From Pseudomonadota bacterium (GTDB lineage Bacteria > Pseudomonadota > Alphaproteobacteria > Rhizobiales > Rhizobiaceae): 11,738 nt of DNA. Within the stretch, counting starts at the first letter, position 1. Each line of letters begins with the position of its first letter. Made by a program: the position numbers and the translations under genes. Below the pieces are notes generated by a model. The model ran no database searches, had not been told where the DNA came from, and saw only the letters and a list, made by a program, of their open reading frames with translations. The stretch is from contig JAEYTV010000141.1 of assembly GCA_023433855.1 (NCBI GenBank), positions 1 to 11,738 on the forward strand. The letters run 5' to 3'. Of the stretch, positions 1-11,738 are shown one piece after another.

Positions 1-113
1 TCGATCTTGATGACGTCGGCGCCCAGATCGGCAAAAATCTGGCTGGCCCAGGGTCCCGCCATGATGCGACTGAGATCGAGCACGCGAATATGGGACAGAG
101 GAGACCGCTTCAT
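1..113 (-). CDS. CaiB/BaiF family III CoA-transferase, N-terminal fragment (cut by the left edge)
   Basis: Reading the minus strand from the ATG at 113-111 gives 37 complete codons beginning [16 protein letters not shown], then [20 protein letters not shown]. This is the characteristic N-terminus of family III CoA-transferases: an 'IRVLDLSR' strand, the 'AGPWA' nucleotide-fold turn and 'DLGADVIKI'. These enzymes move CoA between an acyl-CoA and a free carboxylic acid in the cytoplasm; the substrate cannot be told from this fragment. The catalytic aspartate would lie further on, outside the window. The start ATG overlaps the stop TGA of the upstream glutathione S-transferase gene (ATGA at 113-110), so the two are probably translationally coupled. 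The family call is firm; the specific function is open. Confidence 0.85.
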
Positions 114-733
114 GCGGCCGCCTCGTCGCCGGGCAGGGTGGCGAGTGACGAGGGACGGGCGGCGAACGTCCCGTACCATGCGGCCAGTGCAGGATGGGCG
201 CTGCGCCAGTCGCGGTCGGAGAACCGGAAGTCGAGGTAGCCCAGCCCGCAGCCAATGGCTATGTGGCCTATGCCAAACGAGCTCTTATCGAGATCGGGTG
301 CCTCAGGTTCTAAAGCAGCCAGGGCGGCGGCCACTTTCTGTTCAAACCCCGCGAGATAAGTGGGGGACGGCGCACCGTCAGGCCGTCCGACCTCGTTGCG
401 CAGCAGGAGCAGCACATCGAGCAGCCCGTCCCCCAACGCCTGTCGCCTCAGCGCGACAAGGCGATCCGCGGGATCGGTGGGAAAAAGACGCGGGCCATTG
501 TGCAGCCCGTCAAGGTATTCGCAAATGACGGCGGAGTCATAAATCACGCCCTGATCCGCCGTCAACAGAACGGGTATCTTGCCGAGGGGGTTATGCCGCA
601 GGATTTCCGGATTGACCTTGGCCATCGATGCAACGGCTCTGATAAATTCGACACGCCCAGCCAAGCCCGCCTCGTGAAGCACGATCATGACTTTGCGGAC
701 AAACGGAGATCGTGGCGACCATAGAAGCTGCAA
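110..733 (-). CDS. Glutathione S-transferase family protein
   Basis: A 207-residue cytosolic GST-type protein. Residues 1-75 form the thioredoxin-like domain: the N-terminal '[11 protein letters not shown]' with Ser9 at the usual catalytic position, 'GKIPVL' with the cis-proline Pro54 that contacts glutathione, and '[11 protein letters not shown]' with Asp66-Ser67 for the glutamyl group. The remainder is the alpha-helical C-terminal domain. The length is typical of bacterial GSTs (about 200-210 residues). The start is a TTG (733-731) preceded on the minus strand by a strong purine-rich Shine-Dalgarno, GAGGAGGGGGAG, about 3-10 bases upstream; no ATG is better placed. The stop overlaps the start of the CoA-transferase, so the pair forms an operon. 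Its substrate is unknown; the pairing suggests conjugation or isomerisation of a compound handled as a CoA thioester (inference). Confidence 0.9.
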
Positions 734-1010: not shown

Positions 1011-1024
1011 CGCCTCGGGCCATT

Positions 1025-1043
1025 TATCAAATATAATATATCG
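1025..1043. promoter_or_regulatory. Candidate operator, site 1 of 3 (upstream of the EamA permease)
   Basis: The 19 bases TATCAAATATAATATATCG match 16 of 19 positions of the sequence at 4799-4817 before the ABC operon. The right half, TAATATATCG, is 8/10 identical to the TGATATATCA palindrome found before both the kinase and the ABC genes. Such an AT-rich block stands out in GC-rich DNA and lies between a possible promoter and the gene start, as expected for a repressor site. The regulator family cannot be told from the motif. Confidence 0.45.
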
Positions 1044-1058
1044 TCTGCGAGTAGCACC

Positions 1059-1970
1059 GTGACCAATGCCTATGTTCTCGCTCTGCTCGCATACGCGGCC
1101 TTTTCCTTTACCGACGCGTCCGTTAAAGGTGCGGGCGCCCACCTTACGATTTTCGAAATCGCCTTTATAGTCAATGCTTTTGCGGGGCTCGCGCTGTTGA
1201 TCACGCGCCACCCGAACGAAAAATGGCGCGAGTTCTGGCGCACCCCCTACCCGCTCGCCGTCCACGGACGAGCCATCTGCGGCGTCGTGGCGAGCCTCTG
1301 CGGGGTCTACGCCTTCACCACCATTCCCTTGGCTCACGCCTATGCCCTGGTGTTTCTGTCGCCGCTGTTCGTCACGATCATGTCCGCCGTGGTGCTCAGG
1401 GAGTATGTCGGAATCTGGCGCTGGACCGCTGTCGTCGTCGGCTTTGCCGGCGTCCTTCTCGTGGTTAAGCCGGGGTACCTCCCGTTTCAGCTCGGGCATC
1501 TTGCGGCCATCGGAACCGGATTAGGCACCGGCACCGCGATCATCATCCTCCGCCGGGTCGGCGGAAAGGTGAAGACCACCAGCATGCTTGGCACCCTGAT
1601 CCTCTACCTCCTGGGCATCAACGCCGTAGCCATGACGTTGAGAGGGGTAACCATTCCGACGCTGCATGAACTAGCGCTGCTGGCCCTTGCGGGTGTCTGC
1701 TATGGCTTAGGGCAATGGGCGTTCGTCCTCGCGGCACGCCACGGACATGCCAATCAGATCGCGCCGATGCATTATTCCCAACTGGCCTGGGCCGTGGTTT
1801 TCGGCGTCCTCTTCTTTGGGGAGTATCCGGATGCGCTGGCGCTTGTCGGAATGATCGTCATCGCGGCAGCCGGCCTCCTGACGATCGTCCGCGAAAGATT
1901 GCGGGGCCTGAAGAGTGCAAGCTCCGGATCAGCGGTAGTTGGAATTCCGACTACTGCGGATGAAAGCTGA
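1059..1970 (+). CDS. EamA/DMT-superfamily permease
   Basis: A roughly 303-residue inner-membrane protein of the drug/metabolite transporter superfamily, with two EamA repeats and about ten predicted membrane spans. The first repeat runs from 'AYVLALLAYAAFSFTDASVKG' to the 'AGVLLVVKPG' turn that closes EamA domains. The second ends with 'QLAWAVVFGVLFFGEYPDA', the usual last-but-one helix signature. The frame is open from 915, but the upstream 48 residues are hydrophilic and unlike the family, so I place the start at GTG 1059, which gives the normal length of about 300 residues; its Shine-Dalgarno is weak. The last residues 'SAVVGIPTTADES' come from an inverted repeat in the DNA. EamA proteins often export amino acids or metabolites. 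Sharing a candidate operator with the downstream catabolic genes suggests a role for a related compound (inference). Confidence 0.88.
   Translation: MTNAYVLALLAYAAFSFTDASVKGAGAHLTIFEIAFIVNAFAGLALLITRHPNEKWREFWRTPYPLAVHGRAICGVVASLCGVYAFTTIPLAHAYALVFLSPLFVTIMSAVVLREYVGIWRWTAVVVGFAGVLLVVKPGYLPFQLGHLAAIGTGLGTGTAIIILRRVGGKVKTTSMLGTLILYLLGINAVAMTLRGVTIPTLHELALLALAGVCYGLGQWAFVLAARHGHANQIAPMHYSQLAWAVVFGVLFFGEYPDALALVGMIVIAAAGLLTIVRERLRGLKSASSGSAVVGIPTTADES
1928..1961. repeat. Inverted repeat (hairpin) inside the 3' end of the EamA gene
   Basis: Bases 1932-1942 pair with 1947-1957 around an AATT loop: eleven pairs of which two are G-T wobbles. After one mismatch (1931/1958), three more pairs extend it to 1928 and 1961. 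The core GTAGTTGGAATTCCGACTAC is easy to see. Because of the symmetry, both DNA strands encode 'SAVVGIPTTAD' in an open frame. No T-run follows, so it is not a standard intrinsic terminator. Confidence 0.6.
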
Positions 1971-1990: not shown

Positions 1991-2018
1991 TTGCCAAGGT
2001 CAATATCTGATATATCAT
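1991..2018 (+). promoter_or_regulatory. Possible promoter of the kinase-aldolase-dehydrogenase operon
   Basis: TTGCCA (1991-1996, four of six to the -35 consensus) and TATCAT (2013-2018, five of six to the -10 consensus) are separated by 16 bases. The -10 box lies within the operator-like palindrome, which would let a bound repressor block polymerase. No experimental support is available here. Confidence 0.35.
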
Positions 2019-2023
2019 GTATT
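2002..2023. promoter_or_regulatory. Candidate operator, site 2 of 3 (upstream of the kinase operon)
   Basis: The perfect 10-base palindrome TGATATATCA (2008-2017) is flanked, after two mismatched pairs, by AATA (2002-2005) and TATT (2020-2023). This makes a 22-base imperfect palindrome with 9 of 11 positions paired. The identical core occurs at 4794-4803 before the ABC operon. The dyad symmetry and overlap with the probable -10 box suggest a dimeric repressor site. Confidence 0.55.
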
Positions 2024-2055
2024 AGAGACGGTCGGGGATGTGGTGTGGGAAGACA

Positions 2056-3342
2056 ATGAAGCCGATCTTCGGAGTTGTGGCGGACGACCTGACCGGCGGA
2101 ATGGAAACCGCAGCAATGTTGGTGGCGCATGGGATCAATTGCGCCTTTGTAACAGACCCGGATGCGCCGAGCGACATCGATCAGGCCGAAGCCATCGTCA
2201 TCGCACAGAAAACCCGGGTCATTCCCGCCGATGAAGCTGTATCGCGAACCGAGCGCGCGGCCCGGGCACTGATGGCGCGGGGCACGCGCCAGATCTTCTT
2301 CAAATACTGCGCCACCTTCGATTCCACGGACAAGGGCAATATAGGTCCTGTCTCCGACATGCTGCTCTCCATTACCGGAGCGCCCTACACCGTCTTCTGC
2401 CCTGCCTCGCCGACGCTCAAGCGCACCGTCTACAACGGGCACCTATTCCTCGCAACACAGCTGATTTCCGAATCTCCCAAGCGGGATGATCCACTGACGC
2501 CCATGACCGATCCCGACCTCGTCCGCGTGCTGCAGCGGCAGACACAGCATAGGGTCGGGCTGCTTGCGCATTCCGCTATCAGCGCCGGAGGTGCGGCGTT
2601 GCGCCAGGCGGTTGCCGACCAGGCCGCCGCGGGAGTCACCTATTTCATCGCTGATACGATCTATGACCGCGACCTCGATATGATCGCCGCCCTGACGACG
2701 GACTGGCCCGTGATGACTGGCAATGCCACCATCGTGCAGCACTATCCTGCGCTGTGGCGGGAACGCGGCCTGTTGCCGAGCGGACGATACCAGCGCAGCC
2801 TGTTCCCCGTTTCGGGCCCGGGCGTGGTGCTTTCGGGCAGCTGCGCCGAGCGCACGCTCGAGCAACTTGCAGATTTCGAGAGATATCATCCCGTTCTGCG
2901 GATGGACATGACAGCCGTCGAGGGCCCCGAGGCAGCAATCCAGGCTGCGATGGCTTGGGCACTGCCGAGACTGGAGACCGGCCCTGTCGGCATTTCGACA
3001 TCCGCCGCCCCCGAGGCGGTTGCTGCGGCGCAAGCCCGCTACGGTCGCGAGGGCGCCGCCGCGCTTGCCGAAAAGATCCTGGGCAACCTTGCCGTCGCGC
3101 TCCATCGAGCCGGCGTACGGCGCTTTGTCGTCGCCGGCGGCGAGACGTCGGGGTCGGTTGTGGAACATCTCGGCATTCGACGCCTCAATGTCGGTCCGTA
3201 TGGTGGGCCCGGCATAGGGACCGCGACGACCGAAGATGCCGACCCGGTCGCGTTATGCCTGAAGTCAGGCAAGCTCGGTCCCGTCGACCTCTTCATCCGG
3301 GCGCTCGCTGCGATGGAAAATCCGGAGAGCGAGACGACATGA
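2056..3342 (+). CDS. otnK: DUF1537-family four-carbon acid sugar kinase (3-oxo-tetronate kinase OtnK-like)
   Basis: A roughly 428-residue cytoplasmic kinase of the DUF1537 family, members of which phosphorylate C4 acid sugars such as 3-oxo-tetronate at O4 with ATP. The N-terminal substrate-binding domain opens with 'VVADDLTGG' (residues 8-15) and holds 'CPASPTLKRTVYNGHLF' near residues 115-131. The C-terminal nucleotide-binding domain has 'VVAGGETSGSVV' near 358-369 and ends with 'LKSGKLGPVDLF', the counterpart of the family's 'LKSGNFG' signature. I chose ATG 2056 because the conserved domain begins at once and GGGAAG lies just upstream; ATG 2038 in the same frame would add six atypical residues. 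The stop overlaps the aldolase start (ATGA), so the two are coupled. Kinase plus class II aldolase is the known pairing that sends tetronates to dihydroxyacetone phosphate. The exact acid sugar is not shown by the sequence. Confidence 0.85.
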   Translation: MKPIFGVVADDLTGGMETAAMLVAHGINCAFVTDPDAPSDIDQAEAIVIAQKTRVIPADEAVSRTERAARALMARGTRQIFFKYCATFDSTDKGNIGPVSDMLLSITGAPYTVFCPASPTLKRTVYNGHLFLATQLISESPKRDDPLTPMTDPDLVRVLQRQTQHRVGLLAHSAISAGGAALRQAVADQAAAGVTYFIADTIYDRDLDMIAALTTDWPVMTGNATIVQHYPALWRERGLLPSGRYQRSLFPVSGPGVVLSGSCAERTLEQLADFERYHPVLRMDMTAVEGPEAAIQAAMAWALPRLETGPVGISTSAAPEAVAAAQARYGREGAAALAEKILGNLAVALHRAGVRRFVVAGGETSGSVVEHLGIRRLNVGPYGGPGIGTATTEDADPVALCLKSGKLGPVDLFIRALAAMENPESETT

Positions 3343-3986
3343 GCGAAGCCGAATTGCGCGCAACCATGCTAGATGTGGTCGCAAAGCTCGAACAAAAAGG
3401 TTTCAACCACGGTTCGTCGGGCAATGTCAGCTGCCGGCTGGGAGAGGACATGCTGGTCACCCCGACGGGCGGAAACAGCGCCAACATGACGGCGGAGCGG
3501 CTGGTGCGGCTCGACCGTGAGGGCGAAACTGTGGGTGACGGCATTCCTTCGAGCGAGTGGCACATGCACCAGGCGATCCTCCACGCCTATCCGTATGTGC
3601 AGGCGGTCATCCATACCCATGCGGATTGCTGCGTGGCTCTGTCCTGCCTGGCAAAACCCATTCCGGCGTTTCACTACATGATTGCCAGCTTCGGCGGCAA
3701 TGACGTGCCCTGCGCCCCCTATGCGACCTTCGGGACGCGGGCGCTCGCAGCCGGCGCCGTGGCAGCGCTGAAAGACCGCAAGGCCTGCCTCTTGGCCAAT
3801 CACGGCATGATCGTTGCCGCAGGCAGCCTTCAGTCTGCTTTCGATCTCACAGTGAAACTGGAGACGTTGGCCCGCCAATACCTACTCGCATGCCAGGCCG
3901 GCACGCCGGCCCTCATTCCGGATGATGAGATCGAGCGGGTCCTCGAGCGTTACAAATACTATGGCCGCAGGCGGCTGCCGGGCTGA
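3339..3986 (+). CDS. Class II (zinc) aldolase/adducin-family protein, FucA-like; acts after the DUF1537 kinase
   Basis: A 215-residue protein, the same length as E. coli L-fuculose-1-phosphate aldolase FucA as I recall it. The metal ligands fall at the same numbers: Glu73 in 'SSEWHMHQ', His92 and His94 in 'HTHAD', and His155 in 'ANHGMI', with Tyr113 in 'FHYMIA' as the candidate general acid. The phosphate-binding loops 'GSSGNVS' (25-31) and 'TPTGG' (41-45) are present. Such enzymes cleave (or decarboxylate) a phosphorylated keto substrate to dihydroxyacetone phosphate. By position it could be the 3-oxo-tetronate 4-phosphate decarboxylase (OtnC role), but its sequence looks more like FucA than like OtnC, so a true aldol cleavage is also possible. 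The frame is open far upstream (from 2754), but ATG 3339, overlapping the kinase stop, begins the conserved protein. Confidence 0.87.
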   Translation: MSEAELRATMLDVVAKLEQKGFNHGSSGNVSCRLGEDMLVTPTGGNSANMTAERLVRLDREGETVGDGIPSSEWHMHQAILHAYPYVQAVIHTHADCCVALSCLAKPIPAFHYMIASFGGNDVPCAPYATFGTRALAAGAVAALKDRKACLLANHGMIVAAGSLQSAFDLTVKLETLARQYLLACQAGTPALIPDDEIERVLERYKYYGRRRLPG

Positions 3987-4000
3987 CGAAGAGAGCGTTC

Positions 4001-4789
4001 ATGGAGATCACTGGCAAATCGAAGATCATGTTCGTGCTAGCCGATCCTGTGGACCATGTTCGTGCCAGTGCTGTGCTCAACGCCTATTTCGCCGGGATCG
4101 GCGAAGATCTCGCAACGTCTCCACTGCATGTAAGGCCCGATGGGCTCCCGGCGGTCGTTGCCGCAATCCGCCTCATGGGCAATGTGGTCGGTTTTGGCGT
4201 CACAATCCCGCACAAGATCGCGATCATTCCTCATCTCGACGAGATAACGTCTGGCGCTCGGCTGATAGGAGCCGTGAACTTCGTCAAGCGAACCGCCGAT
4301 GGCCTGTTGATCGGCGACAATCTTGACGCGCCGGGCTTCATGGGAGCGCTGAGCTGCCATGGATGCACGGTGTCGGGCAGACGGGTGCTGCAAATCGGTG
4401 CCGGCGGCGCGGGGCGTGCAACGGCGGTAGCCATCGCCCAGGCTGGCGCGTCGGAACTGTGGATTTCGAATCGCGACGAGGCCAAGGCCGAGGGCTTGGT
4501 GACCATGCTCACGTCGCATTATCCGGAAACCAGGTTCAGGTCGGGCAGCGCAGCGGCCGAAACCTTCGATCTGGTGGTGAACGCGACGTCCCTGGGCATG
4601 AAGGCCAACGATCCGCTACCGGTGGAAATCGGCGGGATCGGCGGCTCCACCGTCATCTGTGACATTATCGTCAATCCGGCCGTGACCCGGCTGATGAGGG
4701 TGGCTGAAGGCCTTGGTGCGCGAACAATCGGCGGAAAAGCAATGCTGGACGAGCAAATGGCCCTTGTAGCCGATTTCGTTCGGCGGTAG
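4001..4789 (+). CDS. Shikimate/quinate dehydrogenase-family oxidoreductase (AroE-like), probably catabolic
   Basis: A 262-residue NAD(P)-dependent dehydrogenase of the AroE fold. The N-terminal substrate domain keeps the catalytic lysine (Lys72 in 'VTIPHK'), Asn93 ('GAVN') and Asp109 ('GDNLD'). The Rossmann domain has 'GAGGAGR' (133-139) and 'SNRDEAKA' (156-163), and the C-terminal 'GGKAMLDEQ' keeps the conserved glutamine. The N-terminal motif differs: where AroE has Ser-x-Ser for the shikimate carboxylate, this protein has Val20-Arg-Ala22 ('DHVRAS'), so shikimate is unlikely to be its natural substrate. The gene follows the aldolase by 14 bases, with GAAGAGAG ahead of the ATG, so it belongs to the same transcript. 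I infer that it oxidises a hydroxyl of a (poly)hydroxy acid before phosphorylation. A housekeeping AroE role is not excluded but fits the setting poorly. Confidence 0.83.
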   Translation: MEITGKSKIMFVLADPVDHVRASAVLNAYFAGIGEDLATSPLHVRPDGLPAVVAAIRLMGNVVGFGVTIPHKIAIIPHLDEITSGARLIGAVNFVKRTADGLLIGDNLDAPGFMGALSCHGCTVSGRRVLQIGAGGAGRATAVAIAQAGASELWISNRDEAKAEGLVTMLTSHYPETRFRSGSAAAETFDLVVNATSLGMKANDPLPVEIGGIGGSTVICDIIVNPAVTRLMRVAEGLGARTIGGKAMLDEQMALVADFVRR

Positions 4790-4793
4790 CCAA

Positions 4794-4817
4794 TGATATA
4801 TCAAATATGATATTTGG
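4794..4817. promoter_or_regulatory. Candidate operator, site 3 of 3 (upstream of the ABC-amidase operon)
   Basis: TGATATATCA (4794-4803) is identical to the palindrome before the kinase. It overlaps a second palindrome, CAAATATGATATTTG (4802-4816), whose arms pair completely around the central G. ATGATAT is also repeated directly at 4793 and 4807, a 14-base step. This dense AT-rich block lies in the 66-base gap after the dehydrogenase gene and suggests that the ABC operon has its own regulated promoter. I could not fix the -35 and -10 boxes. Confidence 0.5.
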
Positions 4818-4855: not shown

Positions 4856-6022
4856 ATGCTCCTCGCCCTGAGCCAAGCCAAACAAGAAAAGCGGGAACAG
4901 GCCTCAGTGAGTATGGCAATGAACAAAGCACAGACCGCCGGCGCGTCCATCCAGATCAGCCGGCTGGAAAAACGCTTCGGCAATGTATTCGCGGTGAATG
5001 GTGTCGATATCGATATCGCCGCCGGCGAGTTTCTCGCGCTGCTCGGGCCAAGCGGTTCCGGCAAGACCACCATTCTGATGAGTGTCGCGGGTTTCGAGTT
5101 TCCGTCCAGCGGGAGCATCCATGTCGATGCAGGCGATCTGACCTATCTGCCGGCCAACAAGCGAAACCTGGGCATGGTGTTCCAGAACTACACGCTGTTT
5201 CCGCATATGTCGATTTTGGACAATGTCGCCTTCCCCTTGAAAATGCGTGGCATAGCGAGAGCCGAGCGCCACAGGCTGGCCGAAGAGGCACTCGCCACCG
5301 TTAGGCTCGCCGGCTACGGCGGGCGCTTTCCTAACCAGCTGTCGGGTGGCCAGCAGCAGCGCGTGGCGCTCGCCCGCGCCATCGTCTACCGCCCCCGCGT
5401 GCTGTTGATGGACGAGCCATTGAGCGCGCTCGACAAGAACCTGCGCGAAGACATGCAGCTGGAGATCAAGCGGCTGCACGCCGAACTCGGCATCACGGTC
5501 ATCTTCGTCACCCACGATCAGAGCGAAGCGCTGACCATGGCCGACCGCGTCGCGGTCCTGAAGGACGGCCGAATCCAGCAGATCGGTCCCTCGCGCGAAC
5601 TCTACGAGCGGCCGGCCAATCTGTTCACCGCCGGATTCATCGGCGAGATGAACTTCATCGACGTGAGGGTCGAAAGCCTTGGCGACAGCGTAACAGTGCT
5701 TTCTTCGGCGGGCGAGCGCTGGGATGTTCCGGCCGAAGCCATGGTTGAAAAGATCTCGCCGGGCGAGAAGGCGGTGCTGGCGGTCAGGCCTGAACGGCTT
5801 GAACTCGGCGGCGCCGGCTCTGCCCTGACATTGCAGACCAAGCTCTCCGACGTGGTCTATGCCGGGTCCGCCCTGCTCTTGATAGGCAGGCTACCCGACG
5901 GCACCGAGATCCGGGCACGCCTGCCCGGGGCGTCCGATCTCAGCACGCTCACGCGCGGCGCGACGGCAACCTTCAGCGTACCGAAAGAAGCTGTCCTGCT
6001 CTATGCGGGGGGTGCGAAATGA
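4856..6022 (+). CDS. ABC transporter ATP-binding protein, spermidine/putrescine (PotA)-type
   Basis: A 388-residue ATPase that would power the importer encoded by the next three genes. Numbered from ATG 4856: Walker A 'GPSGSGKT' at 64-71, Q-loop Gln110 in 'VFQNYTLFPHM', signature 'LSGGQQQR' at 162-169, Walker B 'LLMDEP' at 183-188, D-loop 'SALD' and switch His220 in 'FVTHDQSEAL'. The C-terminal part from about residue 260 has the features of a TOBE_2 regulatory domain. The start is uncertain. GTG 4907, ATG 4913 and ATG 4919 lie in the same frame, and conserved homology begins only near 'IQISRLEKRFG', so the true protein may be 17-21 residues shorter. Its stop overlaps the first permease gene (ATGA at 6019-6022). 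Substrate specificity comes from the binding protein, not from this subunit. Confidence 0.93.
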   Translation: MLLALSQAKQEKREQASVSMAMNKAQTAGASIQISRLEKRFGNVFAVNGVDIDIAAGEFLALLGPSGSGKTTILMSVAGFEFPSSGSIHVDAGDLTYLPANKRNLGMVFQNYTLFPHMSILDNVAFPLKMRGIARAERHRLAEEALATVRLAGYGGRFPNQLSGGQQQRVALARAIVYRPRVLLMDEPLSALDKNLREDMQLEIKRLHAELGITVIFVTHDQSEALTMADRVAVLKDGRIQQIGPSRELYERPANLFTAGFIGEMNFIDVRVESLGDSVTVLSSAGERWDVPAEAMVEKISPGEKAVLAVRPERLELGGAGSALTLQTKLSDVVYAGSALLLIGRLPDGTEIRARLPGASDLSTLTRGATATFSVPKEAVLLYAGGAK

Positions 6023-6897
6023 GCACCGCAACCCGATCGCAATTCTGGCATTCGGACGGACGGCGCCTCAGCGGCCTTACCACGCTCCTGCTGCTGTCGC
6101 CCTTCTTCGCCATCATCGGCTTCGTATTCATCTATCCGATCTGCCAGCTTCTCTACATCAGCTTCATGGAGCCGGCGCCGACGCTCGACAATTATGCCCG
6201 GGTGGTCACCAACCCGGTCTATGCGCGCGTTCTCCTGCGCACCATCTGGACCGCCGTGCTGGTCACCGGCCTCGCGGTCATCCTCGGTTTTCCCGTCGCC
6301 TACTACATGAGCCGCGCCCGCGGCACGGTCGCGGTCCTGGTCGGCGTCTGCGTGATCCTGCCGCTGTGGTCGAGCGTCCTGGTGCGGACGGCCGCCTGGT
6401 CCTTCCTGTTCCAGCGCGAGGGTCTCGTCAATTCCGGGCTGCTGGCCGTCGGCATCACCTCGGAGCCGCTGAAGCTTCTCTATACCCAGGGTGCGGTGGT
6501 GGTGGCCATGACGCACGTGTTGCTGCCTTTCATGATCCTGCCGATCTTCGGCTCGCTACGCGCCATTCCCAATGATTATCTCAGGGCCGCGGCAGTCCTC
6601 GGTGCTTCACGCTTGCGCACGTTCCTGGAAGTCATCCTGCCGCTCAGCCTGCCCGGCATCGCTAGCGGTTCGCTGCTGGTGTTCCTGACCGCTCTCGGCT
6701 TCTTCATCACCCCTGCTCTTCTCGGCTCGCCGCAGGAGCTGATGATCGCGACCCTCGTCTCGCAGCAGATCCGCGAGGTGCTGGATTGGCCATTCGCGTC
6801 GGCGCTGGTCGGTGTGCTGACGCTCTTCGTCACAATCCTGGCGCTGGTGTTCAGCAAGACGCTGCGCTTCGACCGGCTGATGGGAGCACAGTCGTGA
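6019..6897 (+). CDS. ABC transporter permease, PotB-type
   Basis: A 292-residue inner-membrane permease with about six membrane spans; the first ('TTLLLLSPFFAIIGFVFIYPI') begins near residue 22. The cytoplasmic EAA-type coupling loop, which docks onto the ATPase, is 'YLRAAAVLGASRLRTF' near residues 187-202, followed by 'LPLSLPGI'. It is the first of two permeases, so the importer would be a heterodimeric channel of the spermidine/putrescine/iron type. The ATG lies in the ATGA overlap with the ATPase gene, and the TGA overlaps the GTG of the next permease, showing tight translational coupling. Confidence 0.92.
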   Translation: MSTATRSQFWHSDGRRLSGLTTLLLLSPFFAIIGFVFIYPICQLLYISFMEPAPTLDNYARVVTNPVYARVLLRTIWTAVLVTGLAVILGFPVAYYMSRARGTVAVLVGVCVILPLWSSVLVRTAAWSFLFQREGLVNSGLLAVGITSEPLKLLYTQGAVVVAMTHVLLPFMILPIFGSLRAIPNDYLRAAAVLGASRLRTFLEVILPLSLPGIASGSLLVFLTALGFFITPALLGSPQELMIATLVSQQIREVLDWPFASALVGVLTLFVTILALVFSKTLRFDRLMGAQS

Positions 6898-7685
6898 GAG
6901 CGCCGGTCGACAGAGGCTCCCTGGCACTCGGGGCATATGTCTATGCGGTCCTCGCCTTTATCATCATACCCCTGGTAATCGTCATACCGATGTCCTTCGG
7001 CACGAACGACTATCTGGAATTTCCCCCGCGCGGTTTTACGCTGAAATGGTACGAGGAGTATTTCGGCAGCCGCCAGTGGCGCAACGCCACTTGGCTATCC
7101 GTGCAGGTCGCCTTCCTCACCGCCATCTGCGCCTCCGCTATCGGCACGGCCGCCACCTATGCCATGGTGCGGGGACGGGGAAGCCTGGCGACCTTGTTCC
7201 AGATCCTGCTGATCGGCCCGATCATCGTTCCCCATATCGCACTAGCGGTTGGGCTCTACCTGTTCTTCCAGTCGATCGGCCTTTCCGGCACCGTTCCAGG
7301 CTTCGTGCTTGCCCATACCATCCTGGCGCTGCCTTTCGTGGTGTTCACTACGGCGTCTGCACTCGGGAAGGTCGATGCCAGCCTGGAAGCGGCGGCGATG
7401 AGCTGCGGCGCATCCCGCTTTACCGCCTTCGGGCTGATCACGCTCCCACTCATTCTGCCAAATGTCGTCAGCGGCGCGCTGTTCGCCTTCATCATCTCGT
7501 TCGACGAGCCCGTCGTGTCCTTCTTTCTGTCCGGCGTTCGCCACAAGACGCTGCCACGACGCATGTTCGAGGACATCGAGCAAAACCTCACCCCCATCAT
7601 TCCGGCGATAGCCACGCTGCTGATCGTCCTTTCAATCGCGATCCTTCTCGTCGCCTACCTGATGCGATCGCGGGCCAAGACCTGA
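6894..7685 (+). CDS. ABC transporter permease, PotC-type
   Basis: A 263-residue second permease with about six spans, beginning 'GAYVYAVLAFIIIPLVIVI'. The EAA loop is 'EAAAMSCGASRFTAF' near residues 165-179, followed by 'LPLILPNVVSGALFAF'. The 'FIISFDEPVVSFFLSG' stretch is typical of PotC-type subunits. The frame is open from 6786, but those residues would lie inside the preceding gene. The GTG at 6894, sharing GTGA with the upstream stop, begins the homologous protein and gives the usual PotC length. It pairs with the preceding permease in the membrane. Confidence 0.92.
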   Translation: MRAPVDRGSLALGAYVYAVLAFIIIPLVIVIPMSFGTNDYLEFPPRGFTLKWYEEYFGSRQWRNATWLSVQVAFLTAICASAIGTAATYAMVRGRGSLATLFQILLIGPIIVPHIALAVGLYLFFQSIGLSGTVPGFVLAHTILALPFVVFTTASALGKVDASLEAAAMSCGASRFTAFGLITLPLILPNVVSGALFAFIISFDEPVVSFFLSGVRHKTLPRRMFEDIEQNLTPIIPAIATLLIVLSIAILLVAYLMRSRAKT

Positions 7686-7727
7686 CTGGACCTAGAATAA
7701 AGAATCTAAAGCAAGAGGAGAACGTCT

Positions 7728-8795
7728 ATGCCTAAGCAGAACTGGAAATGGACCACCGCAGCCCTTGGGATTGCCGCCGGGCTTGCCGCTGCGTCCCCCG
7801 CCGCCACGCAGGAACTGGAGGATCAGTTGGTCATCGCGACCACGGGGGGCCTGATGGGCAATGCACTCACAAAATACTTTTACGAGCCGTTTGCCGACGC
7901 CAAGGATGTCGAGGTGGTCCCGGTCGCCATCGAGGTGCCGGACCAGTGGGCGCGCTCCGAGGCGATGATGCGCACTGGCAATGTCGAATTCGACATCGTC
8001 ACTGCGACCGGCCCTGATCTGGTTGCCCGCACCGAGATGCTCGAAAAGATCGATTGCAGCCAGCTGCCGAGCATCCAGAAGTTCGGCGTCGCCGATGCCT
8101 GCACCGAATATGGCGTCGTCCGCACGACTGGCGGCATGCTGATCAACTACAATACCGAGGTCTTCAAGGACAAGGCACCTAAGACCTGGGCCGACTTCTG
8201 GAATGTCAAGGATTTCCCCGGCCCTCGCGGCCTGCCTGATACCGGCGACCGCGACTGGTGGGTGCCCGTCGCAGCCCTCCTGGCCGACGGCGTGAAGCCC
8301 GAGGAACTGTTCCCGCTCGATATCGACCGCGCCTATAAGAAGCTGGACGAAATCCGTCCGCACGTGGCCGTATGGTGGAAGACCGGCGATCAGGTGCAGC
8401 AGATCATGCGCAACAAGGAAGTCGTGATGACCATGAGCTATTCCGGCCGCGCACTTGCCGTGGTCAAGGAAGGCGCTCCGGTCGCGATGTCCTGGGACGG
8501 GGCCATCCGCGACACCGGTTACATGGCGATCCTGAAGGGAGCCCCGGACAAGAACGCAGCGATGGCCTATCTCGACTACTTCTATGCCAATGCCGAAGCG
8601 CATGTTCCCTTTATGCGCGACGTCAACTACGCAACCGGCAGCAAGGCCGTGTTCGATGAGATGAAGCCCGAGGAAGGCAAGCTCTTCGCGACTTCGCCGG
8701 AAAACTACGAAAAGCTGATCAAGCCGGATTTCAAGTGGATCGGCGCCCATCGCGACGAGCTGCGCGCCCGCTGGACCGCCTGGCTGACGCGGTAA
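7728..8795 (+). CDS. Periplasmic substrate-binding protein of the ABC transporter (PotD/family 1 type)
   Basis: A 355-residue extracellular solute-binding protein. It starts with a Sec signal peptide: a short basic start (Lys3, Lys7), a hydrophobic Ala/Gly/Leu core at about 11-22, and probable cleavage between residues 22 and 28. The mature part 'LVIATTGGLMGNALTKYFYEPF' is a first strand-loop typical of spermidine/putrescine and ferric-type binding proteins. 'TGGMLINYNTEVF', 'PKTWADFW' and the late 'YSGRALAVVKEGAPVAMSW' are also family features. A strong GAGGAG lies about eight bases before ATG 7728, in the 42-base gap after the permease. This protein determines what is imported. Its ligand cannot be read from the sequence, but the following amidase genes suggest an amide or an amine-containing compound (inference). 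Confidence 0.92.
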   Translation: MPKQNWKWTTAALGIAAGLAAASPAATQELEDQLVIATTGGLMGNALTKYFYEPFADAKDVEVVPVAIEVPDQWARSEAMMRTGNVEFDIVTATGPDLVARTEMLEKIDCSQLPSIQKFGVADACTEYGVVRTTGGMLINYNTEVFKDKAPKTWADFWNVKDFPGPRGLPDTGDRDWWVPVAALLADGVKPEELFPLDIDRAYKKLDEIRPHVAVWWKTGDQVQQIMRNKEVVMTMSYSGRALAVVKEGAPVAMSWDGAIRDTGYMAILKGAPDKNAAMAYLDYFYANAEAHVPFMRDVNYATGSKAVFDEMKPEEGKLFATSPENYEKLIKPDFKWIGAHRDELRARWTAWLTR

Positions 8796-8814
8796 CATCG
8801 GTATGTGACGATTG

Positions 8815-8930
8815 CCCTCTCCCTCACGCGGGGCGAGGGAACCGCTCCCGCGGCCGACGCCGATGTCGCAAAGTTGCAGCATGTCCCTTCTCCCGGTCAC
8901 GGGAGAAGGAGCGTCGGCCGAACGAGGGGC
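8815..8930. repeat. Nested palindromic intergenic element (REP/RIME-like)
   Basis: Between the binding-protein gene and the amidase genes lie two nested inverted repeats. The outer pair is CGGCCGACGC (8851-8860) with GCGTCGGCCG (8911-8920), ten perfect pairs. Inside it is a perfect ten-pair stem CCTTCTCCCG (8886-8895) with CGGGAGAAGG (8900-8909) around GTCA. To the left, CCCTC (8821-8825) can pair with GAGGG (8835-8839). The CCTTCTCCCG...CGGGAGAAGG type resembles dispersed palindromes common between genes in Rhizobiales; that likeness is from memory. No T-run follows. It could protect the upstream mRNA or reduce expression of the following genes. The wider gap 8796-8963 holds no gene that I can support. 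Confidence 0.65.
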
Positions 8931-8963
8931 AGAGCAAGGTCATTGCAGAACAGGACTTTATCT

Positions 8964-9314
8964 ATGGATCACACCAGTGACCCCAACGCGATGCGCTACG
9001 TCATCGATCCGGAGAGGCTCGATCTCGTTGCCCAATTCCGCAAGAGTCCGCTAGGCGCACACAGCCCCGAATTGCGGGCGATGCTGGCAAAAATGCGCTG
9101 GGGCAAGGCCGAGGGCCGGCTGGTACTGATCGTGCTGGAGCCGGGCAAGGCGTGGCGCCTGTCGCGCATTCCCGAGCGGCGCGGCGACCCCATGCCCTTC
9201 GTCGACGACCGCATCTTCACCTCGCTGGCCGAGGCGGAATGGCATGTCTTCAAGATCCGCTGGCAGGCCATGACAGGTGCAACGCTACCCCCGGAGTACC
9301 AAGGTGATCTATAA
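8964..9314 (+). CDS. Small subunit of an N,N-dimethylformamidase-type amidohydrolase (DmfA1-like)
   Basis: A 116-residue soluble protein. The start ATG 8964 has AGGA eight bases upstream; the frame is open from 8805, but that part crosses the palindromic element. The C-terminal half, 'GKAWRLSRIPERRG' then 'PFVDDRIFTSLAEAEWHVFKI', follows the pattern I recall for the small subunit of Paracoccus/Alcaligenes dimethylformamidase: a W-x-x-x-R-I segment, a proline-bearing loop, then D-x-R-F/I-x-(T/S)-x-x-E-A-x-x-x-V-F-x-x-R. The N-terminal half is not recognisable. It ends 11 bases inside the large-subunit gene, as expected for a coupled two-subunit enzyme. In the known enzyme the small subunit packs on the large one and is needed for activity. 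The identification rests on this pattern and on gene order, so it is good but not certain. Confidence 0.7.
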   Translation: MDHTSDPNAMRYVIDPERLDLVAQFRKSPLGAHSPELRAMLAKMRWGKAEGRLVLIVLEPGKAWRLSRIPERRGDPMPFVDDRIFTSLAEAEWHVFKIRWQAMTGATLPPEYQGDL

Positions 9315-11550
9315 GACCAACGAATATCTCGGCTATCCCGATCGCATCAGCGTTCCCGCCGGAGAGACCGTCAAGTTCCAGCTGTCGAGCAAACGGCCCG
9401 CGGTCAACGTCGAGGTGCTGCGCCTCAGATGCGGCGATGTCGATACGAACGGTCCGGGCTTCAAATACGAGGTCATGCAGAGCGCCATAGACGGCGTTCA
9501 CGCATGCCTCGACCAGGAAATCCGCCCCGGCTCCTGCGCCGTGATCGAGCACGGCGGCACGCTTGTGCCGGCAGGCCGCGCCTGGTCGTTCGGCGCTTAT
9601 ATCTATCCAACCCGCATCGCTGACAATGCCCGGGGCATCATGGGCAACTGGTGCCAGAGCACCGCCCGGGGCTACGCCTTGGAGATGGACGCGGAAGGCC
9701 ATCCGGTTCTGGTTGTCGGGGCGACCCGTGTTGTTCTGAAGACAAAGGCGCGTCAGCGTATCTGGTCCTTCATCTCCGCTACCCTGGATTTCGACCGGGG
9801 CATTGCAACCCTTTCGCTTGTTGTGCCGGCCGACGGCACCCGGCCCGCCGCCGCCCACGCCGAGACCTTCGCGCTGCCCAAGGGGCTGTCGCTGGAGTCC
9901 GGCCTGGATTTTCTGATTGCCGCCCATCACCTCGACGAAGGCCAAAGATACACCGCCCATTTCGACGGCAAGATCGAAGCGCCGCGGGTGTTTTCCGCCG
10001 CGCTGGAGGCAGAGGCCTTGCGGGTCTTCGACGCAAGACCACGCACGGGTGCCACCACATCGGACCTCGTCGCCTTCTGGGATTTCGGCGAGGGCATCAC
10101 CACACTCGGCGTCAAGGATATCTCGGCCAATTGCCTGCATGGACACCTGCACCAGCTGCCGCGCCGCGGCGTAACGGGCTTCTTCTGGTCCGGCGCCGTC
10201 CATGATTTTCGCCTCGCGCCAGCCGAATACGCCGCCATCCATTTCCATAGCGACGACATCTATGACTGCCAATGGCAGACGACGTTTTCCCTCGATGTGC
10301 CGGATGACTGGCGCACCGGCGTCTATGCGCTTCGGCTGACACCATCGGGCGACAATCCCGAACCCGACTGCGAGAGCTACGTTACCTTCTTCGTGACACC
10401 CGGCAGAAAAACCAAACGCGCCGATCTCGTGGTCGTTATGTCGGTCGCCACCTATCTCGCCTATGCCAACAGTGCGCTGCGCCTCTATCAGGTTCATTTC
10501 GAGACGCTGATGGAGCATGTCCTGTGGCTGCCGCTCGACGATGTCTACATGCAGGAACACCCGGAAATCGGCCAGTCGACCTATGACTGCCATGTCGACG
10601 GTTCCGGGCGCGCCTACTCCTCCTGGCTGAGACCGGTGCTCAGCATGCGGCCCCGCGGCTACTGGTTCAATCTCATCAACGACACCCATATCCTCGACTG
10701 GCTCGAGGAAAAGGGCATCGCCTACGACATCATCACCGATGTCGAACTGGACCGCCAGGGCGCCCGCGCGCTCAAGCCCTACCGCGCCATGATGACGCCG
10801 ACCCACGCGGAATATTACTCGTTCAACATGATGAACGGCATCATGGAATATCAGAATGCCGGCGGCCGCCACATCTCCATGGGCGGAAATGCCTTCTACT
10901 GGCGCTGCGGCTTCCATCCCGCCGCGCCTGCCGCACTTGAAGTCAGGCGCGGAATGGCGGGCACACGCACCTGGGAATCGGAGCCTGGCGAGGTGCATCT
11001 TGCCGGTACGGGCGAACCCGGAGCGCTGTGGCGCCATAGCGGCTTTGCCCCGCAGAAACTGGTAGGTACCGGCTTCTCGGCCATGATCAACGACACCTGC
11101 GCCTACTACGTGCGCATGCCCGACAGCGAGGATGCCCGCGTCGCCTTCATCTTCGAAGGCGTGGGTCGCGATGAGAAGCTCGGCAATTTCGGCTTCCGCT
11201 ACGGGGGCGCCGTCGGCAGCGAGATCGACCGTCTGGACTACGAGCTCGGCAGCCCCAGGCATACGCTGCTGCTCGCCACCTCGGAGGGCCTTGGCGCCGG
11301 CGCCCTACCGACACCGGAGGAATTCCGCACCATGGTGGACGGTCTAGACGGAACGCAGAACGCGCTGGTGCGCGCCGACATGGTGTTCTTTGAAACGGCC
11401 AATGGCGGCGCCGTCTTCGCCTCCGGTTCGATCACCTACGGGATGTCGCTCGGATACAACAACTACGACAACAACATCAGCACCATCACGCTGAATGTCG
11501 TGAAGCGCTTCCTCGATCCCGAGCCGTTCCAGCTGCCGGCACTCGCGTAA
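9304..11550 (+). CDS. Large subunit of an N,N-dimethylformamidase-type iron amidohydrolase (DmfA2-like)
   Basis: A roughly 748-residue cytoplasmic enzyme subunit, close to the 762 residues of the Paracoccus dimethylformamidase large subunit. Domain order: N-terminal beta domain ('GYPDRISVPAGETVKF'), a concanavalin/LamG-like domain around 95-265 ('SFGAYIYPT' to 'FWDFGEG'), then the C-terminal catalytic domain from about 375. Numbered from GTG 9304, the expected iron ligands are present: Tyr387 ('TYLAYAN'), Tyr427 ('STYDCHVDG') and Glu503 ('THAEYYS'), with catalytic-type His501. They correspond to Tyr399, Tyr440, Glu521 and His519 of the Paracoccus enzyme (numbers from memory). 'MPDSEDARVAFIFEG' and 'YNNYDNNIS' near the end are also shared. 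GTG 9304 is chosen because GGAG lies seven bases upstream; GTG 9277 would add nine residues. The reaction is hydrolysis of an N-substituted amide. The import genes and distant resemblance suggest a substrate other than dimethylformamide. Confidence 0.85.
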   Translation: MIYKTNEYLGYPDRISVPAGETVKFQLSSKRPAVNVEVLRLRCGDVDTNGPGFKYEVMQSAIDGVHACLDQEIRPGSCAVIEHGGTLVPAGRAWSFGAYIYPTRIADNARGIMGNWCQSTARGYALEMDAEGHPVLVVGATRVVLKTKARQRIWSFISATLDFDRGIATLSLVVPADGTRPAAAHAETFALPKGLSLESGLDFLIAAHHLDEGQRYTAHFDGKIEAPRVFSAALEAEALRVFDARPRTGATTSDLVAFWDFGEGITTLGVKDISANCLHGHLHQLPRRGVTGFFWSGAVHDFRLAPAEYAAIHFHSDDIYDCQWQTTFSLDVPDDWRTGVYALRLTPSGDNPEPDCESYVTFFVTPGRKTKRADLVVVMSVATYLAYANSALRLYQVHFETLMEHVLWLPLDDVYMQEHPEIGQSTYDCHVDGSGRAYSSWLRPVLSMRPRGYWFNLINDTHILDWLEEKGIAYDIITDVELDRQGARALKPYRAMMTPTHAEYYSFNMMNGIMEYQNAGGRHISMGGNAFYWRCGFHPAAPAALEVRRGMAGTRTWESEPGEVHLAGTGEPGALWRHSGFAPQKLVGTGFSAMINDTCAYYVRMPDSEDARVAFIFEGVGRDEKLGNFGFRYGGAVGSEIDRLDYELGSPRHTLLLATSEGLGAGALPTPEEFRTMVDGLDGTQNALVRADMVFFETANGGAVFASGSITYGMSLGYNNYDNNISTITLNVVKRFLDPEPFQLPALA

Positions 11551-11556
11551 AGAACG

Positions 11557-11576
11557 GCCGCACCTCGTCGTGCGGC
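11557..11576 (+). other. Stem-loop after the amidase large-subunit gene
   Basis: GCCGCAC (11557-11563) pairs perfectly with GTGCGGC (11570-11576) around CTCGTC, six bases after the TAA stop. The following bases TATCGAAACC are not a T-run, so read-through into the next gene is likely. It may act as a partial terminator or an mRNA-stabilising structure. Confidence 0.35.
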
Positions 11577-11623
11577 TATCGAAACCGGCGGCATCGGCTG
11601 CATTCGCATTGCAAGAGACGACC

Positions 11624-11738
11624 ATGGCAGACACCAACGAATTTCAGTCCCCCGAACTCGGCACCATGAACGTCGCCCCCCGCAAGGTCAGGCCGATGTA
11701 TGCCGACGATCACTGGCATAGCCAGCCATGGTATGAAG
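11624..11738 (+). CDS. Unidentified protein, N-terminal fragment (cut by the right edge)
   Basis: An open frame starts at ATG 11624 and reaches the end of the window without a stop (38 codons). It encodes MADTNEFQSPELGTM, then a basic-proline stretch 'APRKVRPMYADDHWHSQPWYE'. A weak purine-rich AAGAGA lies about seven bases upstream. There is no signal peptide or membrane span in what is visible, and I do not recognise the family. It lies 73 bases after the amidase gene on the same strand, so it is probably part of the same operon and may handle an amidase product. The reading frame could in principle close just outside the window, but a real gene is more likely given codon use and position. 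Confidence 0.55.
   Translation, partial: MADTNEFQSPELGTMNVAPRKVRPMYADDHWHSQPWYE

Follow-up and report, generated by a model that had tools for sequence, protein, structure and literature searches.

The closest described relative of the putative amide hydrolase considered here is the dimethylformamidase (DMFase) DmfA1A2 of Paracoccus (PDB 6lvb). According to the available text of PMC7686228, Y399, Y440 and E521 bind its iron, activity requires H519, N547 and E657, and the pocket is narrowed by F693 from the adjacent chain, which is given there as the reason that larger amides are poor substrates. We analysed a single contig stretch of 11,738 bases from a Rhizobiaceae genome (JAEYTV010000141.1; hereafter the window), which encodes a DmfA1A2-like pair behind a four-gene ATP-binding cassette (ABC) importer and, further upstream, a kinase, an aldolase and a dehydrogenase; gene content beyond position 11738 was taken from relatives. 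The window and DmfA1A2 have in common the tandem subunit genes, the PF20254 family, the iron ligands and the catalytic His, Asn and Glu, and they differ at the Phe693 gate, where the window enzyme has Thr. That most of a catabolic regulon for an N-acylated amine lies in the window is, in our estimate, about as likely as not.

On pAMI2, a plasmid of 18.6 kb with proven use of dimethylformamide (DMF), a LuxR-type gene is followed by dmfA1 and the beta-subunit gene alone, whereas the window pair sits in a putative regulon with importer, kinase and aldolase; the pAMI2 large subunit is 34% identical to that of the window (A2). No importer is annotated on the 18.6 kb, and the importer queries were without match there. 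An IS3-type transposase gene on the same plasmid encloses a predicted beta-lactamase annotation (L091, 6096-6359), probably a spurious one. The threonate/erythronate pathway of E. coli (YgbJKLM) places a DUF1537 kinase beside a class II aldolase-fold enzyme, as the window does; the window differs in having a FucA-type aldolase and a dehydrogenase of another family. Opine and polyamine ABC importers (binding proteins 5l9s, 6hly and 4eq7) belong to the same binding-protein and permease families as the window importer, which nevertheless scores under the polyamine model cut-offs. In the fumonisin catabolism of Sphingopyxis, the 2-amino group that FumI removes stands next to a 3-hydroxyl; a FumI-type aminotransferase is encoded in the cluster of the window's relatives, outside the window itself, and is instead accompanied by a kinase, an aldolase, a transketolase and amidases. 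Among the papers listed by searches of an open-access library, none described such a cluster in its title or the opening lines of its abstract.

A motif-linked gene set in the window and its relatives

Six genes between 4856 and 11550, four of them PotABCD-like importer genes and the others DmfA1-like and DmfA2-like, run head to tail, as a sequence-only reading of this DNA had proposed; it had called importer and amidase fused, and the genes are merely adjacent. The ATPase gene overlaps the first permease gene by 4 bases, as the first permease gene does the second; the binding-protein gene starts 42 bases 3' of the PotC-like gene, the small-subunit gene 168 bases further on, and the small- and large-subunit genes overlap by 11 bases. 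The boundaries drawn by that reading, 4856-11738, were too narrow, as the unit takes in 2038-4789 upstream, where the kinase, aldolase and dehydrogenase genes that it had left out lie under the same DNA motif and where the kinase/aldolase junction is an ATGA overlap; at the other end it includes a second DMFA2_C-type gene, which begins at 11624 and is truncated by the end of the window. This motif, the palindrome TGATATATCA, occurs twice in the window, before the kinase gene and before potA, compared with 0.01 copies expected.

The same architecture was found elsewhere. When genome contigs were scanned, four loci came up, of which one is a broken fragment. The gene order of the window is found again in Neorhizobium petrolearium (L001, 86%) and Bradyrhizobium stylosanthis (L002, 81%), and beyond the point where the window ends both carry a second DMFA2_C gene, a split transketolase, a GntR/FCD gene in reverse orientation and a gene for a class III aminotransferase. 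L045 has the cluster as in these two, minus the transketolase, and plasmid pHM3 of Rhizobium sp. SSA_523 (L067) has the complete set. The pairing of importer and amidase is therefore not unique to the window, recurring in the same order in Neorhizobium, Bradyrhizobium, Rhizobium and L045, and the relatives add a second amidase, a transketolase and a FumI-type aminotransferase that the sequence-only reading did not contain. Kinase, aldolase, dehydrogenase, aminotransferase, A1 and A2 genes are present in L025 and L026, with an importer of Pot type in the former and of Opp type in the latter; the stretch adjoining L025 (L098) holds transketolase genes and an Opp-type importer. In the Arenicellales locus L003 (36%), A2 has Pot-type genes 4-7 kb off, and the rest of the cluster genes were not found in that stretch.

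Two samples of loci and a set of controls were compared. A search for the aminotransferase in 397 genomes from the order of Bradyrhizobium gave 22 genomes with a match at E 1e-100 or better, from which 21 loci were compared (L002 and L045-L064; G573 was left out). For A2, 32 places were found; 20 were taken as long stretches, L001 was treated separately and 11 were left out. The 20 were the top places apart from that of L001, with L026 and L027 coming from one genome and the A2 gene of L042 being interrupted. Controls were 19 arbitrary 20-kb windows at round coordinates from genomes of both samples, and p values are from Fisher's test.

In the relatives, TGATATATCA precedes aminotransferase, kinase, importer or transketolase genes. 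Exact copies were detected at 20 sites in 11/24 aminotransferase loci, in none of the 19 controls and in none of 18 A2 loci outside the cluster; within the order-level sample, 8/21 aminotransferase loci carry the exact motif versus 0/19 controls (p = 0.004). A 17-base form with up to two mismatches gave 10 sites in six whole genomes (5-9 Mb), all within clusters, compared to one match for a reversed control pattern in the same genomes. Nine of these sites lie in clusters already examined, and the tenth (G074, 8238) lies between aminotransferase and transketolase genes in an adjoining stretch. When six plasmid records were searched with a 14-base form and one mismatch, matches were confined to pHM3 and to the Variovorax paradoxus VAI-C plasmid (CP063167.1), where three matches represent two sites, one (two overlapping matches) just upstream of an aminotransferase gene and one before an importer. 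The Variovorax run (L093, 4138-17663) holds a FumI-type aminotransferase, a GntR gene, two transketolase genes (a split transketolase), an amidase, a penicillin-acylase-family gene and an Opp-type importer. This cluster was not foreseen, and it exemplifies how the motif finds further members. Importers of Pot, Opp and TRAP type all occur in motif-bearing loci. Because 10/11 motif-bearing loci carry a GntR gene, versus 4/13 others, the GntR protein is the natural candidate regulator of TGATATATCA, to which it presumably binds. A near copy, ATATGATATATC, precedes an EamA-type gene in L001 and L067 and does not do so in the window. As a separate observation, the motif stands in L050 before a TRAP transporter gene and before a hydantoinase A/B pair (9162 and 16726), in a locus that also has a FumI-type aminotransferase and a transketolase; the hydantoinase pair represents a further, unrelated type of amide hydrolase.

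The aminotransferase of L001 has FumI (6hbs) as its best PDB match at 444 bits, with the next PDB sequence at 178, and that of L067 matches FumI at 455 bits; glutamate-semialdehyde aminomutase, tried as an identity for this downstream pyridoxal phosphate (PLP) enzyme, was dropped on the same scores. The available text of PMC2933618 describes FumI as removing the 2-amino group of hydrolysed fumonisin B1 to leave a 2-ketone beside the 3-hydroxyl, and the enzyme is also treated in PMC9858248 and PMC4845651. Kinase or split transketolase genes are present in 11/21 aminotransferase loci versus 0/19 controls (p = 2e-4), with queries fixed before 20 of the 21 loci had been seen (L002 was known already); counting a fused E1/transketolase found on the way, the figure is 12/21. 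An amide hydrolase, whether A2, second DMFA2_C, amidase-signature, penicillin-acylase or hydantoinase type, is present in 13/21 versus 1/19 controls, a tally that leans upward, as some of these queries were picked after the loci had been seen. Either class is present in 19/21 aminotransferase loci versus 1/19 controls. Unrelated amide hydrolases thus recur next to the FumI-type aminotransferase, and a co-ordinated gene set is well supported. A sister architecture was noted in L053, L054, L055, L057, L062 and L064, where FumI-type aminotransferase genes stand beside amidase-signature proteins and the motif is absent; a flavin monooxygenase and a type 5 binding protein each occur in five of the six.

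The predicted iron amide hydrolase and the adjacent importer

The large subunit matches PF20254 (DMFA2_C) at 297.8 bits with a cut-off of 27. A2 aligns with DMFase 6lvb across almost its entire length, residues 18-752 (E 6e-123, 415 bits), and N-acetyl-(R)-beta-phenylalanine acylase 8huy is nearly as close (E 2e-120, 406 bits). By its PDB title, the latter acts on an amide bigger than DMF, which suggests that larger substrates are known in the DMFase fold. All six functional residues of DMFase are kept in the alignment, as ligands Y396, Y436 and E512 and catalytic H510, N538 and E649, numbered within the open frame that starts at 9277, and the position of Phe693 is taken by Thr685, in a part where the local alignment is weak. 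These six columns are kept by the A2-type proteins compared (n=11), save for a paralogue from pAMI5 with Asp for Asn. Proteins of the second DMFA2_C type (n=7) keep five of the six, with Arg in the Y440 column and Tyr one place on. The window contains 38 residues of the second-type protein, and these share 66% identity with the beginning of the L001 protein; in relatives the protein is about 558 amino acids long, and it was found in L001, L002, L025, L042, L045, L061 and L067.

The small subunit had no Pfam match and, in a single-sequence search, no PDB match to DMFase. With a profile built from 10 homologues, 6lvb_B was the sole match up to E 1, at 8e-5, and the A1 gene adjoins the A2 gene in relatives too. 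The protein is thus a remote but real relative of the DMFase small subunit.

Several further members of the family were met along the way. A DmfA2 relative on an archaeal plasmid of Halalkalicoccus jeotgali (NC_014299.1) is 36% identical, and Bradyrhizobium sp. CSA207 has a decayed copy consisting of short A2-like remnants with stop codons (L004, 10001-10338). On a plasmid of Agrobacterium larrymoorei (L069, 8141-18224), A1/A2 genes are accompanied by an SDR oxidoreductase, a DSD1-family PLP enzyme and an Opp-type importer, which suggests another amine partner for the DMFA2 family.

Assignment of the importer to the PotABCD type holds at the level of family. All four components miss the NCBIfam polyamine equivalog cut-offs for PotA, PotB, PotC and PotD (353.5 of 482, 178.6 of 348, 157.3 of 326 and 35.9 of 582 bits, respectively), and the ATPase falls narrowly under the subfamily model TIGR01187 (351.1 bits, cut-off 355.6). 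Opine-type proteins are the nearest relatives of the binding protein, whose best PDB match is 5l9s ('Mannopine'; 195 bits, E 1e-56) and which reaches only 36 bits against the spermidine/putrescine-binding protein 1pot.

Genes for an ABC ATPase resembling PotA or the related Opp/Dpp ATPases were detected in 19/20 A2 loci versus 4/19 control windows (p = 2e-6), and in 18/20 A2 loci an ABC part lies within 5 kb of A2. The importer association is thus a general trait of the family in the sampled genomes and not a peculiarity of the window. Importer types near DmfA2-family genes vary between Pot-like, Opp/Dpp-like and Liv-like, and the Pot-like importer of the window is one variant of this general association. 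The sequence-only reading had argued for a larger, polar amide as natural substrate and for an uncharacterised amide-catabolism system. At the level of sequence this proposal gains support, as the pairing recurs, the gate residue differs and the DMFase operon of pAMI2 is without an importer.

A proposed route and its alternatives

In the tetronate pathway, the DUF1537 kinase phosphorylates a CH2OH adjoining a ketone. FucA-type aldolases that form dihydroxyacetone phosphate cut R-CHOH-CO-CH2OP; transketolase cleaves the same hydroxyketone motif. The window kinase passes the 3-oxo-tetronate kinase model NF043035 (415.2 bits, cut-off 350) and is predicted to act on a CH2OH beside a ketone. In the aldolase, the zinc histidines, the catalytic Glu and the C-terminal Tyr match E. 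coli FucA by alignment; YgbL is without that Tyr. As the protein falls under the curated FucA cut-off (203.7 of 264 bits), it is probably an enzyme of FucA type and not the fuculose enzyme itself. The dehydrogenase has 5-ketofructose reductase 7cok as its best PDB match (140 bits, next 126) and falls under the AroE cut-off of TIGR00507 (158.2 of 200.2 bits). Its gene family is present in 6/28 sequences compared, all of which also have A2, and in L067 besides.

Gene content, the conserved order, the kept residues, the motif and the co-occurrence are direct observations; from them we infer the individual reactions, their order, the link between regulator and motif, and the substrate class. An opine-class ABC importer would take up an amide R-CHOH-CH(NH-CO-R')-CH2OH or a close relative, which the two-subunit iron amidase A1/A2, together with the second, single-chain DMFA2_C enzyme, would hydrolyse. 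The FumI-type aminotransferase, encoded downstream in relatives, would turn the freed amine into the hydroxyketone R-CHOH-CO-CH2OH, the DUF1537 kinase would phosphorylate its terminal hydroxyl, and the FucA-type aldolase would split the product into dihydroxyacetone phosphate and R-CHO. The split transketolase, which a good share of the relatives encode, may provide an alternative cleavage of the same hydroxyketone, the shikimate-dehydrogenase-like enzyme may adjust a hydroxyl or ketone of a polyol-like intermediate, and a GntR/FCD regulator acting on TGATATATCA would co-ordinate the genes.

A single intermediate accounts in this way for amidase, transaminase, kinase, aldolase and transketolase, and the cluster is conserved in L001, L002, L045, L067 and the window. 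We therefore propose, tentatively and with somewhat less assurance than for the N-acylated amine regulon as such, an undescribed and patchily distributed regulon for N-acylated 2-amino-1,3-diol-type compounds, in which interchangeable, unrelated amide hydrolases would act first, FumI-type enzymes would have their natural role, and cleavage would proceed by kinase and aldolase or by transketolase. Ceramides, serinol amides and amino-polyols have head groups of this 2-amino-1,3-diol type. Many proteins of the family are automatically labelled N,N-dimethylformamidase, although, of the characterised members encountered here, one degrades a solvent and the other is, going by its PDB title, a beta-phenylalanine acylase; the putative regulon offers a concrete, testable alternative role for one branch of the DMFA2 family, as well as a natural setting for aminotransferases of FumI type, which are known for removing a mycotoxin. 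If the proposal is true, soil bacteria would have a route for recovering carbon and nitrogen from amide-linked amino-alcohols, and both a 'dimethylformamidase' branch and the FumI-type enzymes would gain a physiological role.

Several observations weigh against this proposal. The dehydrogenase step is not accounted for by the chain, the kinase score would fit a sugar-acid intermediate instead, and the window ends before the aminotransferase, transketolase and regulator, which are read from relatives. The substrate on which FumI is characterised, in the available text of PMC2933618, is a 2-amine lacking a terminal CH2OH. Two of the 21 aminotransferase loci (L049 and L052) show neither an amide hydrolase nor a hydroxyketone enzyme. 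A2 is present in only 5/24 aminotransferase loci, and the aminotransferase query was unmatched in 17/20 A2 stretches, with L034, among the other three, a 28% match; A2 is thus not specific to the pathway, and its family has other roles too. The exact motif is lacking in 13/24 aminotransferase loci and absent from the Variovorax A2 locus L068 and from the region upstream of the window EamA gene. In a phylum-level sample of 398 genomes, nine had an aminotransferase match and four new loci were examined. Neither the exact motif nor any match to the transporter queries was found in these four (0/4 for each), where a distant second-type DMFA2_C gene occurs in two, the transketolase in one, the aldolase in two and an amidase-signature gene in one.

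The kinase score is the starting point for an alternative in which the amide contains a beta-amino acid resembling 3-amino-2,4-dihydroxybutanoate on its amine side, or a tetronate on its acyl side, leading to 3-oxo-tetronate and then, by kinase and decarboxylating aldolase, to dihydroxyacetone phosphate as in threonate catabolism. The beta-phenylalanine acylase among the DMFA2 relatives fits such a substrate, as do, weakly, the beta-phenylalanine aminotransferases among the PDB matches of the aminotransferase. The aldolase, however, is much nearer FucA (125-180 bits) than YgbL (61-83 bits; 11 loci matching of 26 searched) and is under the OtnC model cut-off (120 of 250 bits), and the 26 loci contained no YgbM homologue and a YgbJ homologue, weak, in one locus only. 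On balance we regard a sugar-acid route as unlikely.

To a similar degree we doubt that importer and amidase are there for a nutrient resembling an opine, a peptide or an N-acyl amino acid while the motif-linked kinase, aldolase and transaminase serve another under the same regulator. Such a division would suit the opine-type binding protein, the many A2 relatives that lie beside Opp/Dpp-type importers without an aminotransferase, and the A. larrymoorei locus with its DSD1-type enzyme instead. It sits poorly with the motif standing before both transcription units of the window, with the mixture of importer types in motif-bearing loci, and with L061, which keeps an importer and a B-type amidase with the aminotransferase and without A2.

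True degradation of DMF or small N-alkyl formamides, with importer and sugar-type genes as accidental neighbours, would explain why all DMFase catalytic residues are kept and agrees with the automatic annotation of relatives, and it is set aside as highly improbable because of the context (gene order conserved, and motif common, across genera; a pAMI2 operon without importer), the replaced gate Phe and the motif, while the related pAMI5 locus is, in the available text of PMC4543880, a paralogue reported not to be linked to DMF use. Use of N-acyl-homoserine lactones, a candidate prompted by the isolation history of the Variovorax strain, was rejected as it does not fit with kinase, aldolase and transketolase.

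Layout of the window and neighbouring features

The coordinates of all features are collected in Table 1. The start of the PotA-like ATPase is uncertain and may lie some 50 bases downstream of the position listed.

Table 1. Genes and motif copies along the window, with the matches or positions on which each entry is based.
Feature	Position	Strand	Matches or remarks
GST-like gene	110-733	-	PRK10357 best model, score under cut-off
EamA-type transporter gene	about 1020-1970	+	
Palindrome TGATATATCA	2008..2022	+	5' of kinase gene; right flank TGTAT; overlaps sigma-70-like -10
3-oxo-tetronate-kinase-like protein, DUF1537 family	2038..3342	+	NF043035, PF07005, PF17042
Class II aldolase, FucA type	3339..3986	+	zinc histidines, Glu, C-terminal Tyr
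Shikimate-dehydrogenase-like oxidoreductase	4001..4789	+	PF08501, PF01488
Palindrome TGATATATCA, second copy	4794..4803	+	5' of potA
ABC ATPase, PotA-like	4856..6022	+	ABC_tran and TOBE_2; best NCBIfam model PotA
ABC permease, PotB-like	6019..6897	+	best NCBIfam model PotB
ABC permease, PotC-like	6894..7685	+	best NCBIfam model PotC
Periplasmic solute-binding protein, opine/polyamine class	7728..8795	+	SBP_bac_8; PDB 5l9s
DmfA1-like small subunit	8964..9314	+	profile match 6lvb_B
DmfA2-like large subunit, predicted mononuclear iron amide hydrolase	9304..11550	+	PF20254; 6lvb
Second DMFA2_C-family protein, first 38 residues	11624..11738	+	truncated by window end

Upstream of the cluster, the GST-like gene had no match in the 24 aminotransferase loci or the 20 A2 loci. 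An EamA-type transporter gene lies upstream in three clusters, those of the window, L001 (1800-2681) and L067 (9748-10596). GC-rich palindromic pieces (8812-8935), including one imperfect 19-base inverted pair, lie in the gap between the binding-protein and DmfA1-like genes and are of a kind known as intergenic repeats from rhizobia.

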